Positions 1 to 25,919 of a stretch of DNA of 64,000 nucleotides are shown here, in pieces. The notes beneath the pieces were generated by a model, which had not been told where the DNA came from, made no database searches, and worked only from the letters and a program-made list of their open reading frames with translations. Both the position numbers and the translations under genes were made by a program. Source of the DNA: Physcia stellaris (taxonomy: Eukaryota; Ascomycota; Lecanoromycetes; Caliciales; Physciaceae); assembly GCA_018902385.1 (NCBI GenBank), contig JABSSW010000019.1:558001-622000 (forward strand), read 5' to 3'. Within the stretch, counting starts at the first letter, position 1, and each line of letters starts with the position of its first letter.

Positions 1-218
1 ACAAATTACGTTTTGCAATTGTTTTTTATTCACATTTTATTTATTCAATCGTACGAATTCGATCGATTTCGACTGACAATATGAATTTGTTGAATTTATC
101 GTTGATCGAATTGTAAAATGATTGAAATTGATTTTTTTCGAAATCATTCGAATTTCGATAATCGAATTGTTTGACGAGATGCGAATCGCATTTTCGAAAA
201 TTTTGAATTTTTATTTTT
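1..218. other. AT-rich flank left of element C
   Basis: This stretch is AT-rich and shares the CpC/CpT-poor composition of the following 25 kb. No similarity to the region before the matching repeat at 23761 is visible, so it is probably outside the oldest element or belongs to another degraded repeat. No gene is seen. Confidence 0.4.
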
Positions 219-376
219 TACATTAATTTTTTGACAAAATTAACGTGATTTGAAATTTGACGCTCGCACATTGTTTGCAATTTCATCATTTTGTACATAT
301 TTGTTTTTGCAAATTTATTGTTTTCGTTTAACTAATCAATATTACGTTTATTCAAACACGATTCATGATATTACAA
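219..376 (+). repeat. Left LTR remnant of element C
   Basis: This matches 23761-23915 in direct orientation over about 155 bp, including the shared stretch CGCACATTGTTT and the end CACGATTCATGATAT. The outer border is uncertain by several bases. Confidence 0.65.
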
Positions 377-2656
377 TAAATTTTCAATTTTTATCGCTCG
401 TCGAAATACGCGAACGTTCAAAAATAAAATTTCAAATCGATCAAATTTTTTTGACGAAACAAACGACGAAAAATTCTGTTGATCAAACAAATGATTTAAA
501 AATTTTTTTGACGAAACAACGACGAAATCTTCGACGATAAAAAACGAAAATTGACTCGATTAATTTTTTTTTTTTTTTATCATTTTCAATTTTTCATTTT
601 CAATTATGATTCGAAATCATCACGAAACAATTTTTTCGAATTTTTTATTTCGATGAAACAACGTTTCAAAACGTTACGCGTCAACGTGAATCGTATGTTG
701 CATAAAATTAACGACAATTTTTTTGACGAAATTTTCGTTGATCAATTCAAACGTCGTCGATTTGTATCAACGATCGATTTCATAAAAATAAAAAATGAAA
801 AAATCATTTATTTTTGAATATCGTCATCATCGATCAATTGAAATGATGAATCAATCATAAAATCGTCGATTTTTTAAAAATTTGATCGATTAAACATCGA
901 TCGCGATAATTATTTGAACGTTTTAATTCAATATCAAAATTTGTACAATATTGTCAACGTCGATCGTGACGAATTGATCAATACGAATGTCGAATTAAAT
1001 AAAATTCGTCGAAAATTGAATATTTTGAAAAGCGAATACGAAAAACAACGTGATTTATTTTTGATTAAACAAAAAAATTATATTTTTTGAAAAAAATCAC
1101 GACGTTTTGTTGATCAAAACTCGCGATCGTGCACGAAATTTCGACATCGATGATAAAAAACGACGATAAAATCAACGTAATTAATTTTTTTCAAAAAAAC
1201 AAACGACGTTTCAAAACACATTCAAATTTTTTTAAATTCATCGATGAAATAGAATTCATTTGACGTGTTTAAAAAACAAAAATACACGATAAAATGACGA
1301 TCAACGTTGATTATTACGACACGAACATGATCGTAATCACTATTGTAATTGATTGAATTGAAAATAATATCGATAATCACATACAATCGATTCGTGATAT
1401 TGATATGAATTATTTCAAAATTTGACATATAATGTTGAAATTTTTTGAACATTATTTACAAAAATTTTGATTTCAAACGCAATATGCGTAATCAATTTCG
1501 AACATTGATCATGAATATTCAAAATTTTCAATTTTTTTATTTCATTTTTTTGTTTTAGCAATTCAATTGATTATAACGAAATCATCAAAATCGAAAAATT
1601 GATAACAAAATTTTTGAAATTTGAAAAAACGATGAATGTATATTCACGTGAATTTATCACGTTCGATGAAATTCGAATCATTTTGCAATAAATATACAAT
1701 CGACAATCGAATTTTCAAAAAAAAAAAAATCGCGACACGTCAACAACGTTTTGAATTGTTTCAATTCAAATCAATTTTTATCGTTTCGATTTCGATGTTT
1801 TTACGAAATTTGTCATTTCGACTTTTTTCGTGAAATTTACAATTCATTTACATTTCAACGTTGAAATCAAAATTCGTGATTCGATGATTGACAAATTGAT
1901 CGTCACGAACAAATGTTTCACATGTGACGAATTGAATCACGTTTGAAAAAAATGTTCGAACGATCACAAACATCAAAAACGTCATTGACACAAAATGCAA
2001 ATATCGTACATGAATTTAATCGTCGAATCGAATGATTTTGATTCGAAAAATTAACAATTCACATCAAAAACGCGATTGATGAATGTTTAAAATTTTTTTT
2101 TATTCACGACGATGATTTGTTTGATTTTTTTCATCAAACGATTTTTAGTCATCAATTGTACGTTATCATTCAACGATAATAAACATAAATCAAAAATTTT
2201 AATAAACATTGATACAATTGATTATACATTCATTGATAGAAAAATCGCGCAATTTGTATGCAACATGCTGAACATAAAATTCGTATTTTTATTGAAATCG
2301 AAATCATTGATTGAATTCGACAATCGTCAATTTTTTCAATAATTCACGTCATATATTTTAAATTAACGATAGAATTGCATTTCGAGTTGATCGTTTTTTT
2401 GTTAATTATCGATTTGAATAATCATTCGATAATTTTAAAAAAATCGTGAATAAACAAACATGAAATCATATTGAACATGATTTACGATAAATTGATTTTC
2501 AAATCGTTCAAATGCAATCATCATGACAATATATTCAATCAAATTGTTCAAATTCGACGTTTGGAAATTCTCAAATCAAATCGTCGATGAAATGTATTTA
2601 ATTGACGTCGTGATATCGTGTTATCGCGAAAAACAATTCGAAACATATAACGATAA

Positions 2657-2825
2657 TGTTAAAAGCGAAGCACATCGAAAAGATGTTTGTTTGTTGATTG
2701 ACTAGAAAATCAATCGAGCAAAAGCGAAAACGATTTTTTTGTATGTAATAATCAATTTATAAGTTGAAACTTCTCTAACAATTAGCAATTCAGTTTTTTA
2801 CACATTCATTTGTTTGCATTTTGCA
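2657..2825 (+). repeat. 5' LTR of element A
   Basis: This is a direct-repeat partner of 9914-10085 and is preceded by GATAA. It is followed at once by ATTTGATAGCATCAT, almost the same sequence that follows the 5' LTR of element B, which marks the primer-binding-site region. Confidence 0.9.
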
Positions 2826-5800
2826 ATTTGATAGCATCATCTTGCTACATCAATATGCATTCACATCATTGATTGTGAATAGCAAACATCATTCGAACTG
2901 TCAATTTGCTTTGTTTGTTAATCAGTTTTTCGCTGTTTTTATTTTGCATCGCTTTCGTTCACTACGTTGATGTTGATGTAAATCTCATTTGACAAATCAC
3001 TCATTAATCAGTTGTCAAAGATTTCTCATTTATTCATTTGTACGAGTAATTCATCTTTTCATTTATCATAATTAGAAAAGCAATTTCAGACATTTTTCTA
3101 TCGACATTTTGACGTCGATATTCAACGAAACTATTCAGTTTGCGTGATCATTGTACGATTTTCTTCAAATCGATCACGATTTCGTTTCATTGTTCATTGA
3201 CGAGAATCGACGTACGATTCAAATCTTGATTGTCAAAAATTTCAAATTTTTTAAAATTCGAGTCAGCGATTCAATTTACTCATCGCAATGACGTAACGTG
3301 ATAAATTTTTTCGAATCGTTTTGAATCAATTTCGTTTCGATATCGAGCAATTTCGTCGATCGAAAATTTATCGCAATTTTTTGATCAAATCACGAATCGT
3401 CAATTCACAATTCAGCGATTCAAGTTCTTTCGTAAATCAAATTAGAATTTTCAGTCGGCAAATTTTTGTTATTCTGTTCGATGTTTTCATTGTCACTAAA
3501 TTTCGAAAAAATAGTGATTCAGAAATTCGAACATTTAATTTTTCGTCAATTATCACATCAAAAACGTCAAAAGCAATCGATTTTGCATTCGATTTCAATT
3601 TTGTCAACATTCGTGATATTTCGATCGAGAAAATCATTTACACACAATTCATTGATTTTGTCATGTTTGATCAAAAACAAAATCAAAATCAATTTGATTC
3701 GATCGTTCAAACAATCATTAACGTCGTTGTTGTTGTCGCGAATATCAAATTCGAAAAGCATTTTCGACGTTTGAAAAAACGATATAATCGAGACGATCGT
3801 CGTCGAGACGACGAAAAGTTTAAAAATCAATCATTCAATGATCAAAAATCTTCGAAGAAACGATTTATAGTCAAAAATCACGAAAATATCGATTATTTCG
3901 ATTCAGAATTAGAGAATGCTGAAAATCGTTCGTTAATCAATGTTGATCGACATTTATTTTATCGTGATGTGTTTGCGTTCGAAACTCGTTTGAAAAATTT
4001 GATTAAAATTTTTTTCGTCGATAGAATTCGAAAACTGATTTCAATTACGTTGCGAAATCGAGTCGAACGTTGATACATTTACGAGATTAATCAAAATGAG
4101 AAAAATTTTTTGCGAGAAATTTCAATAGATATTTGATGTCGTCAACTCATTAAAAAATTCAAAAAAAAGAATTTCATTGTTTTGCAAAATTTGCAAAGTG
4201 AAAAATACATCATGATCGACGTTCGCAACGAACGCATTTCACGCTTTTACGTGCAAAATATTATGAAACATGTTAAAATTGTCGAATTTTCTTTCATTTA
4301 TAATCAGCTATTTCTAGTTTGAAATGATTTCGATTTGAAATTTCGAATGCAAATTTCGAAATTCAAATTTCACATCGAAATTTTCACGTTTTTCGAGTTT
4401 CTAAACGATAAAATCAATATTTGAAAAGACATGATCATTTTTCGACGAAATGTTAGCAATGTCGAAAGCGTCAATGTTGACAAAATTAACAAATCGATAA
4501 ATAAATCAAATCGTGAACGACAAAACGATTTTCAACAATTTTTTGACGTTGACGATTTTTCATTTTTTTATTTATGATCATCGTTTGATTACAATTTCTA
4601 TCAATATCAAAATAATGTTTACAATCGATCACAAAAATATCAATATTCGTTTTCAAACGAACAAGATTTAAATCGTTCGATCTTTGTTGTTTTTGTCTTG
4701 TCGATTTCAGTTTTCAGACAATTTTTGCGAATAATTTTCGAAAACGCGTTCGATTTCAAGAAATCGACGAACAAATCTCAAACAAATATCGAAAAATATA
4801 ACAATCGAGAAAACAAAACTAGAATTTACGTGACGAACGAATCGAAAAAAGAAAAAAATATGATTTTTGATAATTTTCAACAAAAAAAAACGAATATTAT
4901 TTTGTCAACGACGATGTGAATTATTATGATTCAAATCATCGAAAATTTTACGAAAAAATGAAACGTCGATCAATTTTATTGTAATTCGAAAATTTCAATC
5001 TCGTTGTCGTCGATGTAAACAAGTTTTTTCGTTTAACAATATTTTACATAATCATTTTCGTGTCGATTGTCATTCGTCGAAAATTCAAAATGTCGAAATT
5101 TATTTTGTCAATGATTTCAATTTTAATTTTTCGATTGTCGACAATTTTTTCATCATTGACGTTACAAAAAATTTTGACACGACGTTTTCAACAAATTTTA
5201 CTATTATTCGATTTACAATTGACTTTTTCACTGATGTTGACATTGATTATGATTTTAGAAATTGAAATTACGTCAAAATTAAAACGTTTTTATCATCGAA
5301 CGTTTTATCAACAAACGTTTGTTTCGACTTTGACGCAGAAATTTCATTGATTGATCGAATTTTTTTGAAATTTCAAACATTCGATTTTGTTATTCGAATT
5401 ATAACATCGTCATTCAAAATGCGAAATTTAAACATTCGACGACACGAAACGTGAAAATACGCTATCGCAGACATTCATTTATTCGACATGAAAAATGATA
5501 AAACGATCATTTCGATACTTCGTCGAGAATTGCATTTAGTCGACGATTTGAAAATCAACATGTTGATAAACAATGACATCATGAAATCAGAAAAATCGTT
5601 TCGAATATTGTCAAAAAGACAATTTTCATAAATACAATCGACGTCAACATAGTTTTGAAAATTCGTTCAATCAAAAACGTTATATATCGTTTTGTTCATT
5701 TGCGAAAAACAATTAACGTTTTTTTATATTCAAAAATGATTGTGTCAATCAATCATATCAATTTTTCGATTTCAAGAAATTTTTTTTTCGAATCGACGAA

Positions 5801-8800
5801 CGATTTGAACATTTTTATATATGTTTATGTAATCGACGTTTTTACTATTTCAATAATTGTACGAAATAACAAAAATGTATCGATTAAAATATCACGAAAT
5901 TTTCGTTTAAAACGAATATTCGAAATTGATTTTTCAAATGCGTTTTATATTTTTAACGACGAAAACGTTCGACATTTAATCGTCAAATCAATCAAATTCA
6001 TTCATCGAAACGATTGATTTAAAAAATTAATATTTGTTTGCGTTATCGCGTATGTTATCGTCGCAACGATCAATTTTGACGTAGTCAATTTTGACGTGAC
6101 GATTATTTCGATCGTGTCGAATATCTCGCTAATCATGTCGTTCACATCGTTAGTCATTTCGACTGAATTGAAAAAATTTTTCGCAATCAATTTTTCATCG
6201 TCGAAAATCGTGTTGTTCAATGAAATCACTGTTTATAATTTCGAGATCGCAGACTTTTTCGTCAAAATTGTAAAAATTCTCTTTGTTTTGACAAAATATC
6301 GATTTTGCAAAATTGTCAAAAAAACTGAATGCGTATTCTCTTAAAATTCGATTGAAAAACTAAAATTTCTGAAAAATCAAAATTTATTTTCTAGAAACAA
6401 AGAATCGTGAGTTAGTGAATCGCACATTCGACGAATTTCATGAGTTTGACAAAATGAATTGAACGAATCAATCGATTTCTTTTTTGTATTCAATCTTCGT
6501 TATTTGAAAAATGATGAACGAAAAACGCAAAGACAAAGCGATCATTGATATCAAAAATTTAAACGTTATCATTCAATTCGATGTTTATTCGCTTTTTTTG
6601 CAATTCGATATAAAAGTTTTTGTAAAAAAATGTTTTTACATTTTTGTTATCGATTGTTCGATTTTTTTTTTAATGAAAAATATATTTTTTTGATCGACAT
6701 AAATTCATTGTCGTTAATCATCGCGATCAAAAAATTTTCAACGTAACAATAATAAAATATAAAAATTCGTCAACATACGTGCAACGACAAATAAATCGAT
6801 TACTGAAATATATGAAATCGTTTGTAAAAATTTATATCGACGATATCGTAATTTTTTTCAAAACAAAAAAAAAGCATCAACGTCATTTACGTCAAATTTT
6901 TGAAATATTGATCGAAAACAATATTTTCATCAAATCAATTAAAACATTTATTGAGTATTCGTCAATTTCATTGTTAAATCAAAAAATCGATTTTTTCGAA
7001 TTAGTCATCGTCGAAAAAAAATTGAAAATTATCGTCAAATTTCGATTTTCTCGCACGTTTCGTCAATTAGAAATTTATCTGAATTTCATCGATTGATTGC
7101 GAGATTACATAGTTCATTATGTTGATATTTTCAAATCTTTACAAGATCGCAAAATCGAATTATTACGTCACGATTTCGTCGATGAAAATCAACGACGCGT
7201 TTATTTCACGAAGACGTTTTTGACGAATTTTACGAAAACAAAATTGATCGTTTACAATCGATTACAAATTATTTTAATCAAATCGTCGTATTTGATACAC
7301 GTCGATATTAAACGTCAATTATTTATCGATTTAAATGTCAACAAAGAATTTGATATGAAAATCATGCTTTATTATGTTAAAAAAATTTTTCTCAAAAATT
7401 TGTCGTTTGAAAGTTTTTCATTCAGACACGTCATCGAATCGATATTCTTTTTTAATCGTTTTATTACGTCAGCGAAATTCAAATACTGATTTACAAAATT
7501 AGAAATAACGAAAATAATATGAATATTAAAAAAAATCAAACACATCGTCGAAACATTTTCGAAAAATATCATTATTTATATTGATCATGAATCGACGTTT
7601 GAAATTGTCACGCAAACTACTTTGATTATTACGTTCATTGACAAATTAAATTTGCGATTCATTCGAATTTCGAATTACATTCAGCGTTTCAATTTCGAAA
7701 TTCGACACAAATCAGACAAACAACACATAGTTTTTGATGTTTTGTCTAGATTGATCAACGATAATCACGAATCAGAAATTGAAAACGAGTTAAATGTACT
7801 ATTCACAATCTTTTTAGTTCAAATGAAGAAAGTTTTTCGCAAACGATTAATTGACGATTACAAAACAAATTTCAATTGACATAAAATTTTCGAATTACTC
7901 GATAAAAACGACGAGAACGTCGCAAAATTTTTTTTTGTAAAAAAAACGATTTCATTTTTCGTTTCGACGACATCATTATCGACGATCATGTTTACGAATC
8001 TCGTCGTTTGTGTATTTCGCAATCAGTTGTGCATAATATTTTGCAACAAATTCACGATAAAATCGATCATGTCGAATATGTCAAATGTTTCGAAAAAATC
8101 ATTTTTTCATACTTTATACGAAATTTTTCGCGATATTTACGTTTTTATTTCAAACATTGTTCGAATTTTTTAATATATTAAATTAAACGATATGCATCAT
8201 ACGATTCGTTACAATCGATTTTCATTTCAGTCATATTTTTTCACATTTTCACATTTTCACTATGAATTTTATTTTAGCGTTTTCATTTTTTTTTGACGAT
8301 TTCGATACGACAATGATTGTTGTATGCAAATTTAACAAACGTATTATTTTTATAATTGATAAATCGACATGATCAATTAGCGAATGAAAAGAAATTTTGT
8401 TGAACAAATTAAATGTAAAAAATTGAAATATTTTTAAAACAATTATATCGAATCGTGATCGCAAATTTCTTTTTGATTTTTGAACGATCATATTCAAAAA
8501 ATTAAACGTTCGACTATTGTATTCGACGACGTATCATTCACAAATTGATGATTTGTCAAAAAAAATCAATTAAATCGTCGAAATCGTTTTGCGATTTTAT
8601 TTCGTTATCATGAATGAATCAAACAATTGATCGAAAATTCTATTCAAAATGCAACGTCATTTCAATAATAATCAATTCGTTATCACATTTAAAACATCTA
8701 ACGAAGTCAATTATGAATTCACATCGATTCAATCGTTTGATTTGTGAAAATTTGTCGCAATTATCGAAAATTTCACAGACAATGTCGATATTTTTGATTT

Positions 8801-9913
8801 TCGAAAATTTCTCGCAAACGTTTCGTTTTTCGTCGTTATTAAAATCAGAATCGAGATAATTGACGTTATTGTTTTCGTTCAAATGAATGTCAAATATTAT
8901 TACGATCGAAAACATCAATCACTATTCATGAAAATCGATGATTACGTTTGCATTCGTCTACATCATGATTACAACATTTCGACTATCGCTATATTGAGTA
9001 AAAGCTGAATCAGCAATATGCTGACTCTTTCAAAATACTAAAAAGATGAGAAATTTAGTCTACAAATTAGAGTTATTTGCTCATTGACGAATTCATTTTG
9101 TATTTTCAATAACTCAGCTGAAATTTGCACTTTTTGACGAGAATTCATTTCATCGTTTTCACTCAAAGCAATCAGACTCAATTCACGTTCACGATGATAT
9201 CGAGCTAATCAAATCTTGAAAAATGAATCGATTAATTAACAAACGTCAAATTAAACGACGAGATTCGAAATATTTTCTACGTTGACGTGACTGAAATTTC
9301 GAATATGATGAATGACGCAATCTGTTCGAACTAAAAAATGTTTTCGATTTGATAAAAGATTACGAGAACGCTATACGTCAAATTCAAAGATTTTCAAAAA
9401 ATATGCGTGCAATCGATCGATCGATTAAACAATTCAAAACGTTCAAATCAAAAAAATTCAAATCAAAAGCATTAAAGTTTTTTGCAATCAATTCGTCATT
9501 TGCGTCTATCGCTGCTTCGATTAAAAACATTGAAATTTTTCGCAATTGACTCGTCGTCGTTTGCGCACGCATCGACTAAAAAAATCATATCGTCGAAATT
9601 TTTCGCATTTGATTCATTGTCGTCAAAATCGACAATCACGAATATTCTCGTTGATCAAAAGTTTGCAATTGTTGTTAGAAAGTTTTTCGCGAAATCTGCT
9701 TTGACGAATTCGTTTGTTATCGCTAATCAAAAATCTTTTGCAATTCTTTTTACATCGATTTCGACTTCTTCGACGTCTGAAGTTAATCAATTGATTCGTC
9801 GATTCGCTCGTTTGAATGATTAGTATAAATATGACAAAAAACATGTTAAAATATATGATATAAAATATAGATATGACATCGAGACGTTGTCGTCTATTTT
9901 GAAAAAGACAGAT

Positions 9914-10085
9914 TGTTAGAAACGAAACACATCGAAAAGATGTTTGTCTGTTGATTGACTAGAAAATCAATCGAGCAAAAACGAAAACGATTTCTTTTTT
10001 GTATGTAATAATCAGTTTATAAATTGAAATTTCTCTAACAATTAGCAATTCAACTTTTTACATATTCACAATTTTGCATCTTGCA
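9914..10085 (+). repeat. 3' LTR of element A
   Basis: This is the direct-repeat partner of 2657-2825 and is followed by the target duplication GATAA. About a dozen transitions separate the pair, nearly all in CpT or ApG context. Confidence 0.9.
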
Positions 10086-10621
10086 GATAATAAAATTTCA
10101 ATATATCATTTTATTTCGTTTCAAAATCAAATTTTTATTTTTCACAGTTGAAAACGAATCAAATGTATTCGATTCGAAATGTTTCGAATGTTCAATTCAT
10201 TCGAACGTCGATGACGATGACGAGTCGTCAATCATCGAATCAAATAATTCAAAAATTGATATCACAACGATTACGAAAACGACATTCGTCAAAAAAATTT
10301 GAAAAACAACGCAACAAACGTTGAAAAATCAAAAAACAACAATTCGAAATTTTTTATCATCGAAATTGAATTCAAACGATTCAATGAATATCGCGATGAT
10401 TGATGCAATTTTTTTTGTTTACTCGTCGATTTCAAAAATAAAAAACAAAAAATGCAATATTTTTTCATTACGATCAATCAAATCGATTTCGCGCTCAAAG
10501 CATTGCGAACAAATTTTGAATCGTTGAAAATTGCTGTCATGATCAAAAAAATTTTGAAATATGAACAAATCAAATCGATTTTTGAACGCATAATGAAAAA
10601 AAATATTCAAATATTTCAAAC

Positions 10622-10810
10622 TGTTAAAAGTTTGTCGACTATGAGACGAAAATCTGTCTGACGATTGTCAATGACGAAATTTGAAATAAAAACGTGTTTG
10701 TCGTTGAAAAACAAATCATATGTCATCATAACATTACAATATATATTTCGAAACTTTTTCGTAAAATTAACAATCAATCTTTTTCATTCATTCACATATT
10801 GTTTTTGACA
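10622..10810 (+). repeat. 5' LTR of element B
   Basis: This is the direct-repeat partner of 18094-18283 and is preceded by CAAAC. The following ATTTGATAACATCAT parallels element A at the same place. Confidence 0.9.
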
Positions 10811-13800
10811 ATTTGATAACATCATTTATCACATCAATCGTTGTTTGCATCATTTATTGCAACAACATCATCAAAATTTTGTCAATTTTGCATTGTATTG
10901 CATTGCACGCAAATCTATCAATTTTGTTAATTTTTTTTGTCGTTTTCGTTTCTGTTTGTTGATGTTGTGAGTCTTGACGTCAATGCTATTCATTTGACGA
11001 TGAAAAATTTTCATTTCATTTTATTTTATTTTTCGTTCTATCAGTTTTTCATTATTAATTTGTGAAATTTTTTTTTGTTTATTGTACGAGTAATTCGAAA
11101 TTTTTTTCAACTAGTTTTAAATCAGCAGAAAGATTTTCACAACAAGTCATTTGTAATTCATTTTGACGTCAGTTTTCAACGAAATCACTCAACTTGTTTG
11201 ATTCATTTACGATTTTTTACAAATTGATCACGTTTTTTGTTCATTATTCGACGATATTGATCGACGTACGATGAAAATTCTGATCGTTAGAATTTTCAGA
11301 TTTTTCAGAACTCGAATCAGCGATTCTGTTTATTCATTTCAATGAATCAACGACGTCGTCTCGTTTCAAAACGTCTTGATTCAATTTCGTTTTGATATCG
11401 AACGCTTTCGCAATTCGAACGTTTTTCGAAACTTTCTGATCAAATTTTCAGTTGTAATCAGTTCAAAATTCAATGACTCGACTTTTTTTTCGATTTCTCG
11501 TTTATTCAAATTAAAAACGTCAGTTTCGTCAATCTCATCAATATCGTTTGATGCTTTTTTTTCAAAAAGATTTCGACGCAATAGCGTGTCGAAAGTTCAA
11601 ATTCTCAATTTCACATTCTCGTCTGTAGCATTCAACTACTCATTTATTATCACGTCAAACACATCATTCGATTTTGCGTCTGATTTCAATTTTGTCAACA
11701 TTCGTGATATCTCGATCGAGAAAGTCATTTACACACAACTCATTGACTTTGTCATGTTTGATCAAAAACAAAATCAAAATCAATTTGATTCGATTATTCA
11801 AACGATCATTACAACAACGATCATTGCAATTGTTATTCAAACATTTGTCGATTTTACAGCACAATTGCAACGTTTGCAACAAAATAACATCGAAAACAAC
11901 AATGAACGTGATGATCGACGTTTTTTTGATTTTGATTTTTCGAATGAAATTGCGATTGACGTTGATGACGATAAATCAATTTTGAAAAATTCAAAAAATA
12001 TCGATTTTTTTGATTCGCGTCGTGAAAATGACAAAAATAAAAATGTCATTGTCAACGTTGATCGACACATTTATTACAAAAATGTATTCGTTTTCATCGA
12101 TCGATTTAAAAATTTGAAAAAAAATTCGTTTGATCACAAAATGCGTGAATTCATTGTCGAATGTTTACGCGATGATGTTTTCATTTGACATTCATTGAAA
12201 TTAAATGAAATTGAGAAGAATATGTTTCGTGACGCATCAATGAATCAATGATGTCGTGATTTGATTCGTCGATTCAAAAAACGTGATTCACAAACTTTCA
12301 AAAATTTGCAAATTGAAAAATACATCATGCAAAATGTTCGCAATGATAGAACGTTTAAAATTTACGTGCAAAACATCATGCGTCATTCTAGAATCGTTGA
12401 ATTCAATTCTATCTATAATCAGCTAATTATGACGTGAAATAATTTGAATTTTAATTTCAAAATGCAAATATTTGAGTCAATTACGATTATCATTTTTATC
12501 TCATTCTTCGACTCACTTGACGTCAAAACTAGTATTTGACAGAAAATGATTGTTTATAGATTTATTCAACATGTCAATTCTAGTTTTGATCAAATCGATA
12601 AACAACGTCAAATCAATAAGCAAAATCGTGAACGACAAAACGATTTTCAACAACAATTTGACGTCGACGATTTTCAATTTCTTTACTTTTCGTATGAGTA
12701 TTGATCATCATCAAATTACAACTCATATCAGTATTAGAATTCGACGTTTCAAAATAATGCTTATCAGAAATATCAAAATTTCAATATCAATTTTCAAACG
12801 CACTTCAAAAAGCATTTGTCGTTTTTGTTTTGTCAATTGACAAACAATTTTTGCAATTGACTTTCGAAAACGCGTCAAATTTCAAATTCAAAATCAATCA
12901 CAACGTCGATTAGCAAACGACACAGAACAAAATAATCGAAACGAATTTGACAATCGTGACGACAAAACTAGAACTTTTGTTGTCGATCAAAATAACAACG
13001 AAAAAAGAAGTCTGTGAAAGATTTTCACAATGAAGAACATGAAAATTACTATATTGAGAACGAAAATCTGAATTATTACAATTCGAATCAAAAAAATAAA
13101 ATTCTCGTCAATTTTATTGCGTCAATAGTAGTGATCAAATCATCGTTATTTTATTGTCGTCGATGTAAAAAGACTTTCACATTTAACAACGAACTACATC
13201 GTCATTTTCGTGTTGATTGTAGTTTGATTTTCTCAAAAAAATCGAAATTCTTTAACGACGTCGAAGTCTATTCTGTCAAAAATATCAATTCATTCACAAT
13301 CGATGTTACGAAAGAAATCAACGAATCTAGTCAATCGAATATCGTCATGTTTGTTGAGTTTACGAGCTCATCTATTTCGTTTGAATCTATCATTATTCGC
13401 TCTAACGTCGACTCGTTCGCAGATATTGACACGAGATACGAATTTCGTGACTGAAATTACGTCAAAATCAAAATTTCATTTGTCGTAGTCGTCGTGTCAA
13501 AAAACGTGTGTCTGAACATCGATGTTAACGTTTCATTTATGAATCGAAATTTTTCAAAACACAAACATTCAATATTTCAATTCGTATCATGATTTCGTCA
13601 TTTCAGATTCGTGATTTAGATACTAATCGACATGAAAATTGAAAATATGTCATATGTGATATTCACATGTTTGACACAAAGAATGATCAAAAGATCACGT
13701 CGTTGTTCAAACGCGAAATTCATTTCGTTGACAATTTGAAAATCAACATGTTTTTAGACAATGACATCATTGAATTCGAAAATTTCGCTATCGATATAAC

Positions 13801-16800
13801 TAAAAAACACGCAATGATAAATAGTATCGACATAATCATATCATTGAAAATACGTTTTTTCAAATTGACGATTCAACGATCGATTCATTTCAAAAAGATT
13901 ACAATCATTTCGTCACATGTCGAAATGATCGTCGTCGTTCATCATGTTGAATTGTCGATTACAAAAAATTTTCTGTTTGAGTCGAATGACAATTTCAATT
14001 TTATTTTGTACGCACATTTCATTGACGCGTCTATTAAATCTATTGTTATACGCAACGATAGAAAATTTTCAATCATGATTTTTCGAAATTTTCGATTAGA
14101 CAGAGTATTTGAAATTGATTTTTCTAGTGATTTTCATATCGATATCGACGACGACGATGTCAGATATTTAATCGTCAAAAAACTCAGATTCATTCACAAA
14201 AATGATTGATTCAAAAATTCATTTTCGTTTGCGTCGTGATTTACGCTGTCGCTGTTGCAATCGATAATAGTTTTTCGATTACGTTTGCTATTTTATCGTC
14301 GCTAGTTATTTTGTCACAAACATCAATCGTCACATCGTTTATAGTCATTTTGTCACAAACTTCGATGTCAATTGCTGAGTTGCAAAAAACTTTCACAACT
14401 AAAATCGATGATAACGATTTCGAGAAGTCTTTTACAAACGTTTCTATTTCGTTGATCGAAATCGTTTTGTTTAACGATGTTATCGTCTATAATTTCGACG
14501 AGCTAAACTCATTCGTCAAAATTGTTGAAAAGTTTTCGACGTTTTGACAGAATATCGACTTTGTCGAGATGTCGAAAGAGAATTGAATGAAAATATCATT
14601 GAAAAATGACTGAAAGAAACGTGTAACAGAAAAAACAAAAATGTATTTTTTGAATGCAAAAAATCGAAAATTGATAAACAAAATTTTCGACGATTTGCAT
14701 CGCATTGATCGAATGTTCTGAATTAATCAATCAACGTCATTTTTTTATTTTTGTTTCTGCGTTTGAAAAAGCGTTGACGACGAAAAAAAAATCGTGTAAT
14801 TATAAACATCAGAAATCTCAATGTCATAACACAATCTGACGCATATTCGTTATCATTGCAAACAAATATTATAATCGTCGTACGAGATTGCGACTACATA
14901 TCAATCATTGATTGTTCAGTTTTTTTCTATCAATGACGAATTCATTCAAATGATCGACACAAATTTACTGTTGTTAGTCACAAAAATCAAAAAAAGTTTC
15001 AACGTGATCGTCATGAATTACAAAAACTCATCGACGTACGTGCAACGTCAAATTGATCGATTGTTTCGCGAATATCGTCATTTTATCAGAGTTTATGTGA
15101 ACGATATAGTAATATTTTCTCGTACAAAGATCGAACACGAAACTCATTTGCGCAAAATATTTTCAATGCTAAACAAAAACAACATTTCGATCAAATTTAT
15201 CAAAATTTTTCTGAATTATTCATCAATCTCATTTCTCGATCAGAAAATTGATTCATTCGATTTGATCACGTTCGAAAAAAAACTCAAAACAATTGTCAAG
15301 TTTCGATTTTTTCGCACTTTTCGACAATTCGAAACGTATTTTGATTTGATTGATTGATTACGTGATTACATCGTTCATTATGTTGACATTTTCAAGTCAT
15401 TACAGAACAGAAAGACGAAACTTCTGCGTAACGAACTTATTGCAAAAAATGTTAAACGCGTTTATTTTTCGAAGACACGCGTACAGCATTTTACAGCAAA
15501 GAAATTGATTTCATTCGATGCTTTGCAAATCGTCTTGACAAAGTTTTTTTATCTAATACATTCGAATTTCAAACGTCAATTATTCATTGATTTGAATGTT
15601 AACAAGAAGTTCGATTTCGATGTCATGCTATATTATGTCAAGAAAGTTTTTCTCGAATCAGACAAATATTTTTTTCGTCACGCTATAGAGTCGATACTCT
15701 TTTTTAGTCGACTATTTATCGATGTCGAAACAAAATATTGATTCACTGAATTAAAAATAACAAACATTGTGTGAATGTTCAAAAAAACGAAACATATTGT
15801 TGAAGTTTCGTCAAACAAAACAATCGTTTATATTGATCATGAATTTGCATTCGACATTGCTAATCAAATCACGATGATAATCATTTCAATCGACAAATTC
15901 AATTTACGTTTTGTTCGTGTTTCAGATTACATTCAGCGTTTTAATCTCGATATTCGACATAAATCAGACAAACAACACATTGTTTTTGATGTTTTGTCAC
16001 GTTTAATCAACGATAATATCAACGCGTCAATGATCAGAAATTCTGATAAAAATGAATTTGATGTTCTGTTCACAATTTCACTAATCGAAATGAAAAAAGA
16101 TTTTCGCAATCGAATATTCGATGACTACAAAACTGATTTGAATTGACAAAAAATCAGTCAAATATTGAACGTTGACGACGAGAACGTCGCAAAACTATCT
16201 TTCTATAGAAAAAAATGATTTGATTTTTTGTTCAAATGATTTTATTATCGATGATTATGTTTACGAGTCGCGTCGTTTTTGCATTTTTCATTTCGTTGTG
16301 TCAAACATTTTGCGATTGACTCATGACGATGAACATATCGATTACGTCAAATGTTTCGAAAAAATGTTCGTTTCATATTATATTCGCGATTTGTCTCGCT
16401 ATTTGCGTGATTATTTGAAACATTGTTCGAAATGTCAAATGTATCAAATCAAAAAACACGTATCGTATGATTCGTTACAATTCATATTAATTTCGTCAAT
16501 TTTATTTCATACAATCATTATTGATTTCATTTTGACGTTATTTGTTTTTCGTGACGAATTGAATATCACGATGTCTGTCATTTGCAAGTTCACGAAACGA
16601 CTCACGCATTCATTGTCGACAAAAAGATTTGATTTGTCGTTGAGTGAAAAATCGCGTTAATCGACAAATTAGATATTGTTGATTGAAATATATCGAAAAT
16701 CATAATTTCGAATCGAGATCGCAAATTTTTGTCTGATATGTGAACAACAATTTTCAAGCAACTCGAAATTCGTTTGCTTTATTCAACTGCATATCATTTT

Positions 16801-18093
16801 CAAATTGACGATCAATTCGAGCGAATTAATCAAATGATTGAAATTGTTTTTCGATTCTATTTGATTACAATGAAAAATTCAACTGAGTGATTTAGAGTAC
16901 TGATCAAATTGCAACGTCATTTCAACAATTTTCACTTTGTCACTATTCACAAGACATTCAATGAAACATTCTACGAATTCATTTCGTTGCAATCTTTGAA
17001 CATGTTTCGTCAGTTCGTTACATCTGATCTCATCGGCGATTTGAAAGAGTTTTTCGCAGCGAACAATCGAAAGTCTTTCGCAAAGATTTTTTTCAATGCA
17101 ATTACTCGTGCTCGTTTTGAAATGACTGACGTCATTGCATTCGCTCAAATGATCAGCAAATACTATTATGATCGCAAACATCAATTTTTGTTCATGAAAG
17201 TTGACGACTATGCATTGATTAAGCTGCATCATGATTACAACATATCGACAATTGAAATTCTCGATAAAAAGTTGAGTCAACAATATATCGATTCTTTCAA
17301 AATTTTTGAAAAAATTGACAATTTGACATATCGACTGAAACTTTCGAATCATTGACGTATACATTTTGTTTTATTTATAGTTTAATTGAAATTTGTCTTT
17401 TCATCAATGAACGATTTTTTCAATCGTTCGCGTTCAGATCAGTCAAATTCTGTTTTCGTTGAAAAAGACACGAATCGAGTCAAATCATAAAAAATTGAAA
17501 AATTTATCAACAAACGTCAAATCAAACGTCGTGACGATGAATATTTTGTCAAATGAAAAGATTGAAAATCACAATACGATGAGTGACGAAATTTATCAAA
17601 GCTCGACGACGCTCAAAATTTTGTACAAAATTACGAAAACGCTTTACGTTTTACGATTTTTTTGTCAAATCGTTTGCAAAAGTTTTTCATCATTTCGTTG
17701 ATCAAAATTATTATTTCGTCAAAATTTTTCGCAATCATTTCATTGATTAATTTTTTTTCGCAAATAATTTATCGATGTTTGTCAATCAATTTCAAGCAAA
17801 TCAACGATTCGTAATTGTCATTTCACGTAAATCGAACACGACAACGACGATAACTTTTAATATCGAAACGCTTGTTTTGATTCGAAAATCAATCACAATC
17901 GAATTAATTACGTTTTTCGTCATTTCGTTGATTTCAATCACGTCGTCGACGTTCGCAATTGATATTTTAATGCGTCGTTTTCATCGATTTCAAAAATTAA
18001 AAAAAAAAAATTAAAAATATCGAATATTGTTTGATATGATTAAAAAACATTGTTGACATCGAGACGATATCGTTTATTTTGATTGAAACAAAT

Positions 18094-18283
18094 TGTTAAA
18101 AGTTTGTCGATTATAAAACGAAAATTCGTTTAACGATTGTCAATGACGAAATTTGAAATGAAAACGTGTTTGTCGTTGAAAAACAAATCATATGTCATCA
18201 TAACATGACAATATATATTTCGAAACTTTTTCGTAAAATTAACAATCAAATTTCTTTCATTCGTTCATATATTGTTTTTGACA
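18094..18283 (+). repeat. 3' LTR of element B
   Basis: This is the direct-repeat partner of 10622-10810 and is followed by the target duplication CAAAC. Differences from the 5' copy are mostly transitions, about half in CpT/ApG and the rest mainly in CpA/TpG or CpG context. Confidence 0.9.
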
Positions 18284-20618
18284 CAAACATTTGTCAAAAA
18301 TATTTGATTTTCAAAAAACAATTGAATTGTCATCGCATCGATTTTACGATTACAAAATCGAATTTTTAAACGATAACAATAGTTTGTTTCGAAACAAAAT
18401 ATATTCATTGTTCGAATTCAAATTTCAAAAACTCAAAAATATTTGAAAAATAATTTTCAAAAAAATTTTATTGTACTCAATCAAATTGTTTACGTTTCGT
18501 TTGTTTTATTTGCAATCAAATCAAATGATCAATTACGTTTGTGTGTGAATTATCGACGATTCAATCACATCACAAAACGCAATCGATATTTCATTTTTCT
18601 GAATTTTGATCGAAAAATTTTAATCAAAATGCAAAATTGCAAATATTTGATTAAACTGAATATTATATCGATTTTCAACAAATTTCGAATGAATGAAAAA
18701 AGTGAAAAATTTATCACGTTCGTTATTTTCATGAAATCGTACAAATATCAAATGTTATTTTTCGAATTAATCAACGAATTCGCGAATTGATAACATTACA
18801 TGAACGATTTGTTGTTCAATTTTCTGAACGATTTTTGTCAAATCTATTTAAATGATATTTTCATTTACAGCAAATTCAAAAAAAAAGCACATCGTTCACG
18901 TTCGCAAAATGTTAAAAAATTCAAAAAAATCGAATTACAAATGAATATTGAAAAATGCGAATTTTTCAAAAAAATGACATTTTTGAACGTTATATTATCG
19001 ATAAATGATTTTCGCATGAATTCAAAAAAAATAAAAATCATTGTCAATTGAAAACGTTTTACGAATTTGAAAAAAATGCAAATTTTCGTGAATTTCGTCA
19101 ATTTTTACAGACGATTCATTCGTGATTTTTCGAAAAAAACTCGAATTTTCACTCGAATGATCAAGAAGTTTGTGAATTTCGAATGAATTGAAAAAATCGA
19201 AAAAATCTTCAATCTTTTCAAAAAAACGATAACGAAAATTTTCATATTACGACATTACGATCGAATCAAACAAATCATTTTAAAAATCGATTTTTTTGAT
19301 TACGTCAATGCAAAAATATTATTTCAATACGACGACGAAAAAATGTTGCATTTCGTTGCTTTTTACAATCGCAACATGATTTCAATCGAATGCAATTACG
19401 AAATTTATGACAAAAAATTGTTAATCATTATTCGTTGTTTAAAACATTGACGTTTTGAATTCGAAAATATCGAAAAATCGATCAAAATTTTCATCGATCA
19501 CAAAAAACTGAAAATTTTCATGACGTCGAAAAAATTCATTTTTCGTCAAACTCGCTGAACAGAAATTTTTTCGAAATTCAACATAGTCATTCAATTTCAA
19601 TTCGAAACTCAAAACGTTAAAACAAATGTTTTGATTCGTATGTTTGAATTTCGATTCAAAAACGAAACAAATGAACGACATCAATATCGAAAACAAATAT
19701 TGTTCATTTCAAAACGACTCGAAATTCACGCGATAAAATTCGACGAATTTATTTATGAACGAGTTTTAATTGTCAACAGAATTGACGATGATTGCACGAC
19801 GTATCGTGAAATCATCGAACAAAATCTCATTTCAATGAATGAAATCGATTTACGAAATTGCAATGAAAAAAACGATGTTTTATATCGAAATAATCGATTA
19901 TAAATGTTTGTCAACGTTTTTTTATTCGTTAATTTTTTCAAAAAAATTCACGAATTTTCGATTTCGAAACATTCAAATTTCAATCGTATGAAAAATTTTA
20001 TACGTCGCGATTATTATTGATTCAACATGCGCAAATTCGTTCGTCGATACGTTCGTAATTGTTATGAATGTCAACGTACGAAAATTTTCAAAAATCGAAA
20101 AAATGATTTATTCACATTTTTGATCATTTTTTTGCAACGTTAAATCGACATATTCATGAATTTTATTATCGAATTGTTCGACGTTCACGATCATAACGTC
20201 ATTTGCACGATAATTGACAAATTTAACAAAAAACGTCATTACGTGTTTTGCATCGTCGACGACGAAAATACAAATGCGAAAATCACAATCAAAATATTTA
20301 TTAATTACGTATTTCGTACGCATGAATTATTTTTTTTATAACGTCAAATCGAAAATTTCAATTCATATCGTTTGTTTGACAAGCATTTTGCAAAATTTTC
20401 GACATTAAATGTAAATTTTTCATCGTTTTTCATTCAAAAATCGATAAACAAATCGAAAAAATCAATCAAAATATCGAAAAACAATTGCGACAATATTGCA
20501 ATTACATACAAAACGATTGAAACGTTTGATTATTCATGATTGAATTTGCAAACAACAACGCGATATTTGCAACAACAAAATTATCATCATTTTTCATCAA
20601 TAAAAATTTTCATTTTCG

Positions 20619-20796
20619 TGTAAGACGCATGCTTAGAAAACAGATAGCATAACGAAAATATTTGATTTAAAGAACAAATATGTACAGAAAATCGAATGTC
20701 AAAAATAGAAATGCGTGTCAAGTCACGCTAGTTTTCACATGAATTCTCGCTGATAAGATAAAATCTCAATCGAGATTTTCAGACATGCTCGTAACA
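20619..20796 (+). repeat. 5' LTR of element D
   Basis: It aligns without gaps to 22424-22601. There are 16 differences in 178 bp, all transitions. Confidence 0.9.
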
Positions 20797-21971
20797 TTAT
20801 TTTTTTTTTTTTTTCAAATTTCGTTTCGAAGCGAATAAATCATTTCTTCTATCGATCGACATTGCGAAAAAATTCATTGACGATGACTCAAATATCTGTT
20901 TGATCATGATTGACGTTGAAAATGTCAAAACAAATGCGATAAACGTGAAGAAATAAATTCGAAAACAAAAAATGTGCGAGAAAAAAAAAGATAAATATGC
21001 GACGAGAATGAGAATCTTGTTGAGAATTTTGATCTCGATCGATGCGAAAGATATCTGCAAATTAGTATGATGAAACGATCGATTTCTCGAACAGAACAGA
21101 AACAAAAACAGAACGATATCGATTTCGCGAACGTATGCTGTTTCAAACTTTTCGAATTTGAATTTTTCGAGTCTTTATTAATCGGCGCGTTCTGATTGGC
21201 TGCAGATTCTGAAATAGAGAATAGAGATATGACGCATTGACGACGACGAACAGACGACTGCGAAGAAGACGAGCTGATTTGATCGTGTAGCAAATCTATT
21301 GAATCGATGTTTTTCAGCTTTTCTCTTCATTTGCTTTCGTATCGTTGTATGTAATAGATTCACCTCTTGATTGACTGCAAAGATGTAAAGAATCGAACGC
21401 ATGCGCTTTTGATGTCATTGTAGCGAACTAACTGAGATCGATGTACGGACTCGTTCATAAGACGTCATTGAAGCAGACTCACTAGTCGTTGTAGCGAACT
21501 CACTGAGTGCCGTCGAAGCGAGCAGATCGCTGAGACAAAAACGAAACGAAACGAAACGTAATTCAAATTTTTGTTTGAAATTTTGAGTGATTGTTTGTTG
21601 ATTTGATGATTTGATGTGAAATTGTTGTGTGTGATTTCTATTTTTTTCTTCAACAAAGCGATGTCTCAACGCTTAATAAAAAGACGATTATTGTAGAGAT
21701 CATTCGAAAATAAATGAACTGACTGATTCGAGAAAGCACGAAGATCGTCTATTGACTAGATGTCGAAAACTCGAAGAAAAAGATCGACAATTGACTGTCG
21801 TTGTAACAAATTCATTGATTGATTGACTTTCAGAACAAAAAAATCAACTATTGATTGTCATTATCGTTGACTCACGATCATTTTCGCAGATTCACGATCA
21901 TTTTCGTTGACTCACGATGCGCATAGTGAAAATGAAATGCAATCATCGTCTTCAAAGAGAAAATTTCAAAC

Positions 21972-22170
21972 TGACGATTTTCTTTTGACTCGCGTATTTC
22001 TACGAGTGATTTGACGATTTTCTTTTGAACATTCGCGTATCTTTACGAGCGATGAAGATTTTGTTTCTACTCGCTTCTTTTACGAACAAATGACGATTTT
22101 CTTTAATTTCGCGTATTTTTACGAAATTGACGATTTTATTTCGTTTACTCGCGTATCTCGACGAGCAATC
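21972..22170 (+). repeat. About five tandem copies of a 40-bp unit with a small dyad, inside element D
   Basis: The unit reads roughly TGACGATTTTCTTT followed by ACTCGCGTATTTCTACGAG. It recurs near 21972, 22012, 22052, 22091 and 22128 with drift. Each unit contains CTCG...CGAG arms around a short spacer, so each could form a small hairpin. Confidence 0.7.
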
Positions 22171-22423
22171 TACTCGAGACAGAAAATTTGACGAATGTCA
22201 ATTAGTCTCGCAAAACTCAGAGCGAGAAATCTGTTGTGCAAAAGACAGTGAATCATCGTCATTGCAATTGATAGAAAATTTCGTGCTGAAAATGTGCGAT
22301 CGTCACGAGTTGAATTGTGCTGAAAACGAAATCGTCACAAATTGAATGATCGCGTTTCTTTCTATTCGCTGATTATGCGAGTGTGAAGTTTACATCGTTC
22401 GTCACGATGAAAATCAAATATAA

Positions 22424-22601
22424 TGTAAAACGCATGTCTAAAAAACAAATAACATAACGAGAATATTTGATTTAGAAAGCAAATATGTACAGAAAATCGA
22501 ATGTTAAAAGTAGAAGTGCGTGTCAAGTCACGCTAGTTCTCACATGAATTCTCGTTGATAAAATAAAATCTCAATCGAGATTTTCAGACATGCTCGTAAC
22601 A
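22424..22601 (+). repeat. 3' LTR of element D
   Basis: It aligns without gaps to 20619-20796 and is followed by TTTCG, the same five bases that precede the 5' copy. Confidence 0.9.
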
Positions 22602-23760
22602 TTTCGTATAAACTTTTCATCAAATTTTATTTCGTATGTTACAATGAAAAAGCGATTTTTGATCGTCAAAACAAAAAATATCATCGATACAATACAAAAT
22701 ATTTTCAATTACGTACGAAATCATGCAAAAATAATTCAAAAACGTATAACAATTCAAATCAACAAACATCGAAAAATCGTGAAATACGTCGAAAAAAATT
22801 TCGTTTTTTTGAATCGACGAAACATCAAAACGATCAAATCATTTGACAAATTTAATGACAAAAAATTAAAATCGTACAAAATGCTAAAACGTATGAGCAA
22901 TTTTTATCGATTCGAATTATCAAAAATTATGCGAATTTACGATATGTTTCATTGTTGATTTTTTCGCAAAGATTTTCGTGATTTTTTCGAAAATCAAATT
23001 AACGAATTTTTCGATTCAATCATAATTAACGAGAATTTCGAATGAAAAATGAACGATATTTTGAAATTTCGATATTATTACAATCGTTTTCAATATCGTG
23101 TCAATTGATCAAATTGATTTCATGATCGAACGTGATATTATGTCGACAACGAAAAATTCGATAATGTTCGCGATGTGATGAACGATTTTCATCGTAATCA
23201 TTTCACGACAACAAATTCAAAATCGTTCAAAACGTTGATTTCAATATTTCAAATCGTCGTCAACGAATCAAATTTTTCAACGAATCGTCGTCGTTTTCGA
23301 AAAAAAATCGTCATGTTGACATTAATCGAAATTATTTTCGATTAACATTTGACGTCACGAATTCGATTTTCATTCATTTGTTTTTGATTTCACGATTTTT
23401 ATTCAACAATTCAAATTTTATTATTTTTTCGATGTTATTTACAATCAAAATTTACATCGCATGAAAAACTGAATCGTGTCAAAAACATTTTCAAAAATTG
23501 TCGTCAAATTTTATCGAACGTTGAAATGACAATAAAATATTAAAAAATGAAAAATGATGATCGTGAAATTTTTGAATTTTGCAATCATACAATTTGATCA
23601 ACAAAATTCTCAACAAAATTTTCAAATTTCGCAACAACAACGAATCGTCGAGACGACGTTCGCGAAAAAAAAGAAATAATGTTACGAACATGTTTGACAA
23701 ATAAATCTGACAAATAAACGATATGATAAATGATTGAACAAATAAATTTAAATCGAATTA

Positions 23761-23915
23761 TGTTTTAATTTTTTGACGAAATTAACGTGATTTGAAATTT
23801 GACGTTCGCACATTGTTTACAATTTCATCATTTTGTACATATTTGTTTTTGCAAATTTATTGTTTTCGTCTAGTTAATCAATATTACGTTTACTCAAACA
23901 CGATTCATGATATTT
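23761..23915 (+). repeat. Right LTR remnant of element C
   Basis: This is the direct-repeat partner of 219-376. The sequence after about 23915 no longer follows the interior of element C. Confidence 0.65.
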
Positions 23916-25500
23916 GATAAATTTTCGTATTTGTTTCAAAATATAAAATTCATCGTTCAATAGTTCATTTGCGTTTTGAAATACGTTTTGATTTTCGAAA
24001 TTGTGTTTTATTTGTCACACGATGTAATTTTTCAGAAATAATGTTTTCGCTTTGTTTTTCGAAAATTGAATCGAATTGTTTTGAGAAATTGACGACGAAA
24101 GTTTTTCGATCACGTTTGATTTATTTTTGATCGTCACGAAACGAAATTCAAAAATATTCGAAAGCGTGTCAAAGTGAAAAAACGACGAAAAAATTGAAAA
24201 AACAAAATTATGCGATTTCGAATGATGAGTTGAAACAAAATTAAAATGAAATTGTGATGAATATTGAAATTCGAATTGAAAATCGAATTGAGAAAAATAA
24301 TACGATTGTTGATCGTAAAAAAAAAACATTTTTTGAAAACGACATAACGTACGAATGTTGATTTGTTTGTTGATACGATAAAAACGAAATTTGAAAAAAT
24401 TGATAAAAATAATACGAATTCATTGACGTTTCAAAAATCGATAATTGTGACGTTGATATCGTCGATGATAATAAAATAAATGCAAATTTTTCGTTGAACG
24501 TTTTTACAATATTTTTTTTTTCGATCGTTGTTTGTTTTCAAAAATTGTTTTCATATCGTATAATTTGAATTGCAATTTGTTTGAAAATTTATCGACAATC
24601 GTTTTTTTCGCAACGATAACATCGTTTCACTCGTCGAATCATTCGTGATGCAAAACATAATGTTTATCGTTTTCGTCACGAAATTGTCAACAATATGATG
24701 TATCATTTCGACATGTTTGCGAATTGCATTTTCATATAAAAAGCATTTTATAATTTTCAAATTTTAATTGTTTTTTTGTTTTTTTACGAAATTTCGTTGT
24801 TTTTTTTTGTTTGACGATGATCGAATTCGAATTCTTTTTTTTTTTTTTTTTTTTGAATTTTTTTTAGCACGTAATTTGTTAACATTTTCATTCGTATCGT
24901 TGTTCAATTGCTCGTCATCGATATCGAAAAAAATAAAAAAAAACGAATCAATTTCAACAATATGACATCGTTTTTTGTTAAAAATTTTTGAAAAAAAAAA
25001 TGATTTCATTTTTCAATTTATTATCGTATCGAAACACGATATTAACGATAACATTTTTTTTGTTATGAAATCATTGCATAGCAAATTCATGACAAACATT
25101 TCAATCGTTATTATCGTTGAATTTTTGTTTTGCAATGTTTTTGAACGAAACATATTGCAAATTCGTCGTGCGTTCATGTTTGATTACATTTCGATTTTCG
25201 ACGATTTTATTGAGTCGAAATATCGAATTTTCATTAAAATTCGAATAATTGAATGTTTTGAAAATCGTTATTTTGTTTATAATTTTGTTGTCGTTGTACG
25301 AAATTAAAATGTTTATCGTGTAAAACAACGAAAACGTCGACGATCGTTTTTCGATAATAACGAATTTAAAAAAACGAACATCGTTAATGAAAATCGTGTT
25401 ATTCGTAGTCGATTCGTTGATTTTTTTTTTGATGAAGTTGTTGTTGTTATTCGTGTTTTCATTTTCATCGCGTTTTTTCTCGACGGTTTGTGTTCTTTGA
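23916..25500. other. AT-rich block without a recognised gene
   Basis: This stretch keeps the CpC/CpT-poor composition of the retroelement nest but shows no LTR pair, reverse transcriptase or integrase signal. Open frames exist on both strands, but they are low-complexity and rich in Phe, Asn, Ile and Lys. It could be a further degraded repeat or flanking host DNA hit by the same mutation process. Confidence 0.5.
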
Positions 25501-25919
25501 TCGCGTTTGCAACGATCGTTGCGGCCCAATCTTCAGATGTGCGATCGTAGCAGTATGCTCGAGCACGTGTAGTCATGATATCACGAGTTAATCGATGGTG
25601 GTGGTGAGTTATTGAGGCCGAAAAGATCGATTTTATCGATTTAGCATGCAGAGATAAAAAAAAGTTGCACTTCAGGTTTTCGCGCGGGCGCGGGAAGATG
25701 CAAGCCGAGGTAACGTGGCGGGTGATCGGTTTGGCTGGAGGGGCCAAGCCCTGCAAGCTCCGAGAAGCTTGGTAGCATCATAACCAAGGCTACAGTGAGT
25801 GTCACCCCGGTGTGACAGACCATACCTTGTCTATTACAAGAGCTTGCACTTCCTACATCTCCCTCTCCACTTTTGAGAACAATTGAAATCCGTAATTCCT
25901 AGGCACACCCCTAATAATA
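25501..25919. other. Composition boundary and 5' region of the acyl-CoA synthetase gene
   Basis: GC content rises sharply within about 50 bp near 25,500, and CC and GG dinucleotides reappear at once. No coding sequence is convincing here. The stretch presumably holds the promoter and leader of the next gene. Confidence 0.5.

Follow-up and report, generated by a model that had tools for sequence, protein, structure and literature searches.

Loss of CpC and CpT from a retrotransposon nest of Physcia stellaris, and a candidate mutator that reads the 3' pyrimidine

How can a block of fungal DNA lose almost every CpC and most of its CpT while CpA and CpG stay in place? The question is raised by the first 25,480 bases of a stretch of the Physcia stellaris genome (Ascomycota, Lecanoromycetes; assembly GCA_018902385.1, contig JABSSW010000019.1, positions 558,001 to 622,000 of the forward strand), referred to here as the window, which is 64,000 nucleotides long and is numbered from its first base. 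Directly visible in it are a target preference for cytosines followed by a pyrimidine (CpY), a contrast between the block and the adjoining genes across one sharp edge, change on both strands, loss of CpC before CpT, and an excess of transitions between the paired long terminal repeats (LTRs) of retrotransposons in the block. Which agent leaves such a trace? Is it repeat-induced point mutation (RIP), slow decay or something else? The answer we favour, with somewhat better than even confidence, is that heavy mutation of a nest of transposons is the work of a C-to-T mutator directed at transposons, which recognises the base 3' of its target and acts where this is a pyrimidine, the agent being of RID/Masc1 or DIM-2 lineage.

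Cytosines lost and cytosines kept

Positions 1-25500 hold two CC and seven GG. The odds ratios there are 0.32 for CT and 0.36 for AG, against 1.30 for CA, 1.15 for TG, 3.08 for CG and 0.41 for TA, whereas the remainder of the window (25501-64000) gives 1.01 for CC, 1.02 for CT, 1.09 for CA, 0.87 for CG and 0.70 for TA. TpC is in excess in the block (1.54). The depleted block itself (1-25480) is AT-rich, with a GC content of about 26-35% depending on the segment. Compared with 500 mononucleotide shuffles it contains 8 CC+GG where 847-979 are expected (a non-overlapping tally, which makes that range too low if anything), 883 CT+AG instead of 2461-2714, about one third of expectation, and 3191 CA+TG versus 2488-2704. 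Could an untargeted process, such as ultraviolet (UV)-type dipyrimidine damage, general AT drift or an assembly artefact, have produced this? The block is AT-rich and partly old, as such a process would have it, but base-matched shuffles do not come near 8 CC+GG, dipyrimidine damage would attack the TpC that is here in excess, and an artefact would hardly leave intact LTR ends, target duplications and pieces of reading frame. We consider this explanation very improbable.

Because odds ratios mislead where C is scarce, densities per kb of strand were compared as well. CpA stands at 62.6 in the block versus 67.7 in the flank and CpG at 62.5 versus 56.3, while CpC falls to 0.16 from 65.3 and CpT to 17.3 from 64.9, that is, 27% of the flank value is kept. 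CpA and CpG are spared, and not merely abundant through the scarcity of other cytosines. The products are present as well: (CpC+GpG)/(TpC+GpA) is 0.002 in the block versus 0.91 in the flank and (CpT+ApG)/(TpT+ApA) is 0.105 versus 1.01. TCA in the block (35.1) roughly equals CCA plus TCA in the flank (36.7), and TCG (34.6) is close to CCG plus TCG (30.4), which means that the 5' C of CCA and CCG has turned to T and the C before A or G has been kept. A preliminary description of the window, made from its letters, had reported that CC is virtually absent and CT rare with a mirror loss of GG and AG, and that CpA, TpG and CpG are plentiful; counts and shuffles over the whole block bear out the former and the near-flank densities the latter, and the odds ratios on either side of 25500 agree with strong CpY loss at nearly expected CpA. 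One qualification concerns degree, as the loss is practically complete for CpC and partial for CpT.

Survival of CpT is also uneven with respect to the outer neighbours. Relative to the flank it is 0.18 for GCT, 0.51 after A and 0.44 after T, and by the next 3' base 0.42 for CTA and 0.22-0.27 for CTC, CTG and CTT. Part of this is secondary loss of the adjoining base; part may reflect a wider target context.

What rule turns sequence like the flank into sequence like the block? With flank counts taken from 25601 onwards, the best of 210 rate sets for a C-to-T model that depends on the 3' base brings the squared error over the 16 dinucleotides down to 0.00015 from an initial 0.0399; its rates are 0.999 for CpC (fixed), 0.7 for CpT, 0.05 for CpA and 0 for CpG. 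Over the 64 trinucleotides the error starts at 0.0208 and drops to 0.00034 under the CpY model, but only to 0.0095 under a context-free model, 0.0109 under a 5'-context model and 0.0140 under the classic RIP order. All grids were coarse: on trinucleotides, each of three flank stretches was tried with 15 rate sets for the CpY model, 16 for the five-prime, 9 for the classic and 4 for the context-free one. The ranking is the same with either flank half as ancestor. The target order in the block is CpC > CpT >> CpA, CpG. Context-free C-to-T change and a 5'-context rule of the UV or APOBEC-like kind were rejected on these trinucleotide errors, and CpG methylation decay (Masc2/DNMT1 type) on a CpG survival of 1.05-1.19.

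The same fits bear on the possibility that a deaminase acted on retrotransposon DNA, either an APOBEC/AID-type cytidine deaminase of single strands or some other that is not a methyltransferase. Its substrates would be the right ones, and so would the change from C to T. Known APOBEC/AID members, though, read the 5' neighbour; in this block it is the base on the 3' side that matters, TpC is over-represented and the 5'-context fit is poor. Moreover, a runs test on the CT and AG that survive finds no clustering by strand in the four segments of the block (z 0.02, 1.17, 0.13 and 0.86); the same test on the gene flank gives z -7.90, which is put down to coding-strand composition. Even together with a variant deaminase that has acquired a new 3' rule, this explanation seems improbable.

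Is this, then, classic CpA-directed RIP? The transposon substrate, the C-to-T change, the AT-rich product and the sharp edge would all suit it. Yet CpA survival is 0.86-1.01 across the segments and the classic order gives the poorest fit of the four models. TpA density is only slightly above the flank (1.09-1.33 of it, by segment) and TpA/ApT is 0.41. The combination of CpA loss and TpA excess that would have spoken for classic RIP is absent when counted over the full block, and classic RIP is refuted for 1-25480 by these counts: CpA is kept and there is no CpA-type TpA signature. It is hardly credible and the least probable of the explanations weighed here. Index screens of the block at published thresholds agree, none of 50 windows of the RIPper type passing and none of 127 of the RIPCAL type (the RIPCAL substrate index was taken as (CpA+TpG)/(ApC+GpT)).

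Where does the signature stop? A 1-kb table contains a single regime change, between 25 and 26 kb. The last CC or GG of the block starts at 21510, none occurs in 21511-25480, the next lies at 25485, and 26 follow in 25501-25750 alone. The edge towards the genes, at about 25480, is sharp, and the adjoining single-copy DNA is spared; it is the one edge that lies within the window. Inside the block, five of the eight CC/GG fall in 21184-21511, within the short element E3 described below. A pocket at 21.0-22.5 kb is comparatively rich in CT and AG (24, 33, 22, 19, 26 and 14 in successive 250-bp bins starting at 21001), and CC and GG are nearly absent there despite the retained CT and AG.

A Ty3-type nest and the order of loss

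The block consists of nested Ty3-type LTR retrotransposons, three complete insertions (E1, E2 and E3) lying within older, partly Ty3-like remnants, called the host here. All three have TG...CA ends and 5-bp target duplications. E1 (2657-10085, plus strand) has LTRs at 2657-2825 and 9914-10085, the duplication GATAA and a reverse transcriptase piece at 6677-7093 (RVT_1, E 1.5e-09). E2 (10622-18283, plus strand) is related to it, with 65-72% identity across three aligned body parts; its LTRs lie at 10622-10810 and 18094-18283, its duplication is CAAAC, and on the plus strand it carries a reverse transcriptase (14875-15354; RVT_1, E 9.1e-09), an integrase zinc-binding piece (16169-16657; Integrase_H2C2, E 2.6e-07) that matches the Ty3 Gag-Pol of known structure (E 2.3e-04), and an SH3-like piece (16891-17352; SH3_Tf2-1, E 8.2e-06, under the curated cut-off). 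Reverse transcriptase before integrase is the rule in Ty3 elements. This order is seen in E2 only, since the E1 integrase region lay outside the scan. E3 (20619-22601) is a short element of about 2 kb with LTRs at 20619-20796 and 22424-22601 and the duplication TTTCG; no protein was recognised in it. It is perhaps non-autonomous and, having been mutated less than any other part of the block, offers the best view of the first steps of the process.

Outside the three insertions, an older, Ty3-like element has left a reverse transcriptase remnant at 18383-18787 (plus strand), which matches the Ty3 reverse transcriptase 4ol8 in a phmmer search (E 2.2e-04) and gave no match in the Pfam scan. An SH3-like integrase-end piece at 22548-22955 (plus strand; SH3_Tf2-1, E 8.4e-04, 19.8 bits versus a cut-off of 30) shares its first 54 bases with the right LTR of E3; it is probably part of the older element, with E3 sitting between it and the reverse transcriptase remnant. 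A direct repeat on the plus strand, 223-385 and 23765-23926 (94% identical), encloses all of this and is possibly formed by LTR pieces of the older element. Excising E1-E3 in silico leaves 6615 bases between the two copies, a plausible length for a Ty3 element, but inspection of the repeat ends found neither TG...CA ends nor a target duplication. Overall, the block has 40 frame pieces with 95 residues or more, of which 20 were scanned against Pfam: five gave retroelement matches with E below 0.001, two of them (SH3_Tf2-1) under the curated cut-off, the remaining matches were to unrelated families with E of at least 0.01, and no RNase H match was found among the scanned pieces. A transposon origin is in this way established for part of the host and not for every segment. 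Protein scans for retroelement relatives in viral contigs pattern-matched 8 and 6 stretches, none of which was confirmed. A motif scan found no viral contig and three stretches from bacterial or archaeal records; all three are taken as chance, the best E in a tblastn check of one of them being 0.048.

The nest makes it possible to ask in which order the targets were lost. Relative to the flank, CpC survival is 0.001 in the host, E1 and E2 and 0.019 in E3, and CpT survival rises from 0.081 in the host through 0.289 in E1 and 0.339 in E2 to 0.688 in E3. CpA (0.90, 0.86, 1.01 and 0.91 for host, E1, E2 and E3) and CpG (1.14, 1.13, 1.05 and 1.19) hardly move. With CpC gone everywhere and CpT graded by segment, CpC was lost first and CpT afterwards; the least saturated segment, E3, implies a CpC:CpT rate ratio of 10.6. 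Nesting makes E1-E3 younger than the host, whereas their ages relative to one another are read from the CpT loss, and the CpT gradient could have been caused by unequal mutation intensity instead of age.

Independent of any flank, the LTR pairs offer a record of change after insertion, as the two LTRs of such an element are known to start out identical, which is presumed here as well. The 536 aligned bases of the three pairs contain 45 substitutions, 41 transitions and 4 transversions, and the transitions divide into 18 C/T and 23 A/G, that is, they affect both strands. Where the 3' base is shared, a C/T difference is seen at 30 of 49 CpT sites (19 unchanged), at 6 of 74 CpA sites (68 unchanged) and at 2 of 44 CpG sites (42 unchanged); three more transitions have an altered 3' neighbour. 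The outer repeat pair adds nine transitions and no transversion, five before T, one before A, one before G and two with an altered neighbour. The E2 LTRs (10622-10810 and 18094-18283) show a larger share of CpA and CpG changes than the LTRs of E1 and E3, which would fit an additional, weaker C-to-T process acting on E2.

Could slow decay give the same picture? Methylation of CpY in silenced transposons by a DIM-2-type enzyme, followed by slow deamination of 5-methylcytosine and with no dedicated RIP step, is the main rival to a driven process, and it is almost as unusual as the mutator that we favour. DIM-2 is reported to be active in all CpN contexts with a preference for CpT (PMC13297926), and the larger CpT loss in the host than in the insertions is what gradual decay would yield. 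However, that reported preference is for CpT and not CpC. At an ordinary mutation rate, which is assumed, four transversions among all the LTR bases suggest that little ordinary time has passed and that the CpY loss looks driven rather than drifted. In E3 the contrast is extreme: no transversion in 178 aligned LTR bases, set against the loss of 98% of its CpC, is a very large excess. Passive decay is unlikely on these grounds, although far from negligible.

Damage to coding sequence, and the spared genes

What does such a rule do to a transposon's proteins? Among the 2776 residues of 19 frame pieces chosen by hand from E1 and E2 there is no proline, no tryptophan and one glycine, the lack of proline and glycine following from the absence of CC and GG. 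Sixteen of the pieces end in TGA and three in TAA, while the all-frame background is 418 TGA, 207 TAA and 67 TAG (binomial chance of the TGA bias 0.025); TGA-heavy ends are expected if TGG became TGA. In contrast, 93 CAA/CAG codons are retained, as are 148 CGN codons, and it is the glutamine codons that a CpA mutator would make into stops. The coding damage runs via tryptophan, proline and glycine codons and spares those for glutamine.

In the unmutated, gene-rich reference flank (25485-64000), eight of ten proteins match Pfam families: AMP-binding, desaturase with cytochrome b5, xanthine/uracil permease, MOSC, C2H2 zinc finger, Mob1, Cdc73 and CobW C-terminal. The top structural matches of the permease are named uric acid-xanthine permease, and the zinc-finger protein we take to be CreA-like; both likenesses would suit a filamentous ascomycete. 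A plus-strand frame at 56113-57834 encodes a PQFPGG-like repeat through a 21-bp tandem repeat of about 10 copies (57448-57653); a two-copy 21-bp repeat (57320-57363) and a 129-bp unit in 2.2 copies (56869-57156) lie nearby.

A candidate mutator and its known relatives

Which enzyme could follow such a rule? We propose a mutator of the cytosine-5 methyltransferase family, from the RID/Masc1 or the DIM-2 lineage, in which recognition of the 3' neighbour would have been altered. A re-specified RID or DIM-2 member is preferred because cytosine-5 methyltransferases read the 3' base and because these two are the known fungal RIP agents. The enzyme would convert CpC to TpC almost fully and CpT to TpT at a lower rate, would seldom act on CpA and would leave CpG nearly alone, and a fresh insertion would be expected to lose CpC first and then CpT step by step. 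It would find transposon DNA, perhaps recruited by repeat homology or by heterochromatin, halt at its edge and probably go on mutating old copies.

Several points weigh against this proposal. Transposon 5-methylcytosine in Pyricularia is found at CpA in preference to CpC and CpT (PMC7979813), and there is no precedent there for a CpY-preferring methyltransferase. In the fits and in the host rates the gene flank takes the place of the real ancestral sequence, and the best fit includes a small CpA component of 5%. The E2 LTR pair is mixed, its 11 scorable transitions comprising five at CpT, four at CpA and two at CpG, and CpC cannot be scored in LTR pairs as none survives.

The preliminary description had read the pattern as a C-to-T process with a CpY target and called it RIP-like. 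The first stands as the best of the models tested and recurs in the LTR-pair differences; the second holds for the substrate, which is transposons and not the adjoining genes, for the sharp edge, for both strands being affected and for the excess of transitions. The mode of action is RIP-like, but membership in classic RIP is not claimed, as the CpA rule fails. On balance we think it probable that the block records a genome-defence mutator whose rule is inverted with respect to RIP, asking for a 3' pyrimidine and not a purine, be it a re-specified RID or DIM-2 or a new deaminase, and that it would have been overlooked since RIP screens count CpA and TpA. CpA-based indices can wholly miss strong hypermutation, as the screens of this block demonstrate.

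How new is the pattern? The CpT half is not, given earlier reports: CpT is mutated beside CpA in Botrytis cinerea, Sclerotinia sclerotiorum and Magnaporthe oryzae, both changes being tied to RID (PMC4352252), CpT-to-TpT is named as the prevailing change where RIP-capable genomes are counted from alignments (PMC7882544), and strong CpT change is described for Tad1 of Neurospora crassa and some Stagonospora repeats (PMC2621366). CpA comes with CpT in Anisogramma (PMC10998396), N. crassa ribosomal DNA shows mainly CpA change with more CpT (PMC5555474), and in Sclerotinia CpA and CpG are hit above CpY (PMC4188875, citing Clutterbuck). Changes at CpC have been recorded too. Monilinia has CpC-to-TpT double changes alongside classical CpA RIP (PMC8959702), and in a Rhizoctonia table CpC changes have the shortest mean spacing, 214 bp, though the authors stress CpG (PMC4014442). 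A literature search that covered few subscription papers turned up no account of fungal repeats in which CpC is mutated first and CpA is spared, and among the RIP reports compared, as far as their accessible text goes, none describes CpA sparing in an ascomycete. A 2025 k-mer survey of 1,239 fungal species concludes that RIP-like defences share a CpA preference (PMC12543289); the block, near saturation at CpC and hardly changed at CpA, shows that this rule can be reversed. It is also a natural variant for finding what determines 3'-neighbour preference in RID/DIM-2-type enzymes.

Set beside the known systems, the block shares most with RIP of N. crassa and other Pezizomycotina, carried out by RID with DIM-2: C-to-T change on both strands of transposons, an AT-rich product, spared genes and a sharp edge. 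The order of targets differs. It is CpA>CpT>CpG>CpC in N. crassa and CpA~CpG followed by CpT>CpC in Trichoderma reesei (PMC5496416), and CpC>CpT>>CpA, CpG here. The Botrytis, Sclerotinia and Magnaporthe signature resembles the block in having CpT to TpT as a main change, but there CpT accompanies CpA, and PMC4352252 makes no mention of CpC, whereas the block loses CpC first and spares CpA. DIM-2 methylation is likewise non-CG with a reported leaning to CpT; it differs in occurring in all CpN contexts, and CpC-first mutation is not described in the available text of PMC13297926. The CpG-type hypermutation of the basidiomycetes Microbotryum and Rhizoctonia (PMC4352252, PMC4014442) is a RIP-like C-to-T process with a non-CpA rule, as in the block, but its targets are CpG or TpCpG, and CpG is the dinucleotide that the Physcia block leaves untouched.

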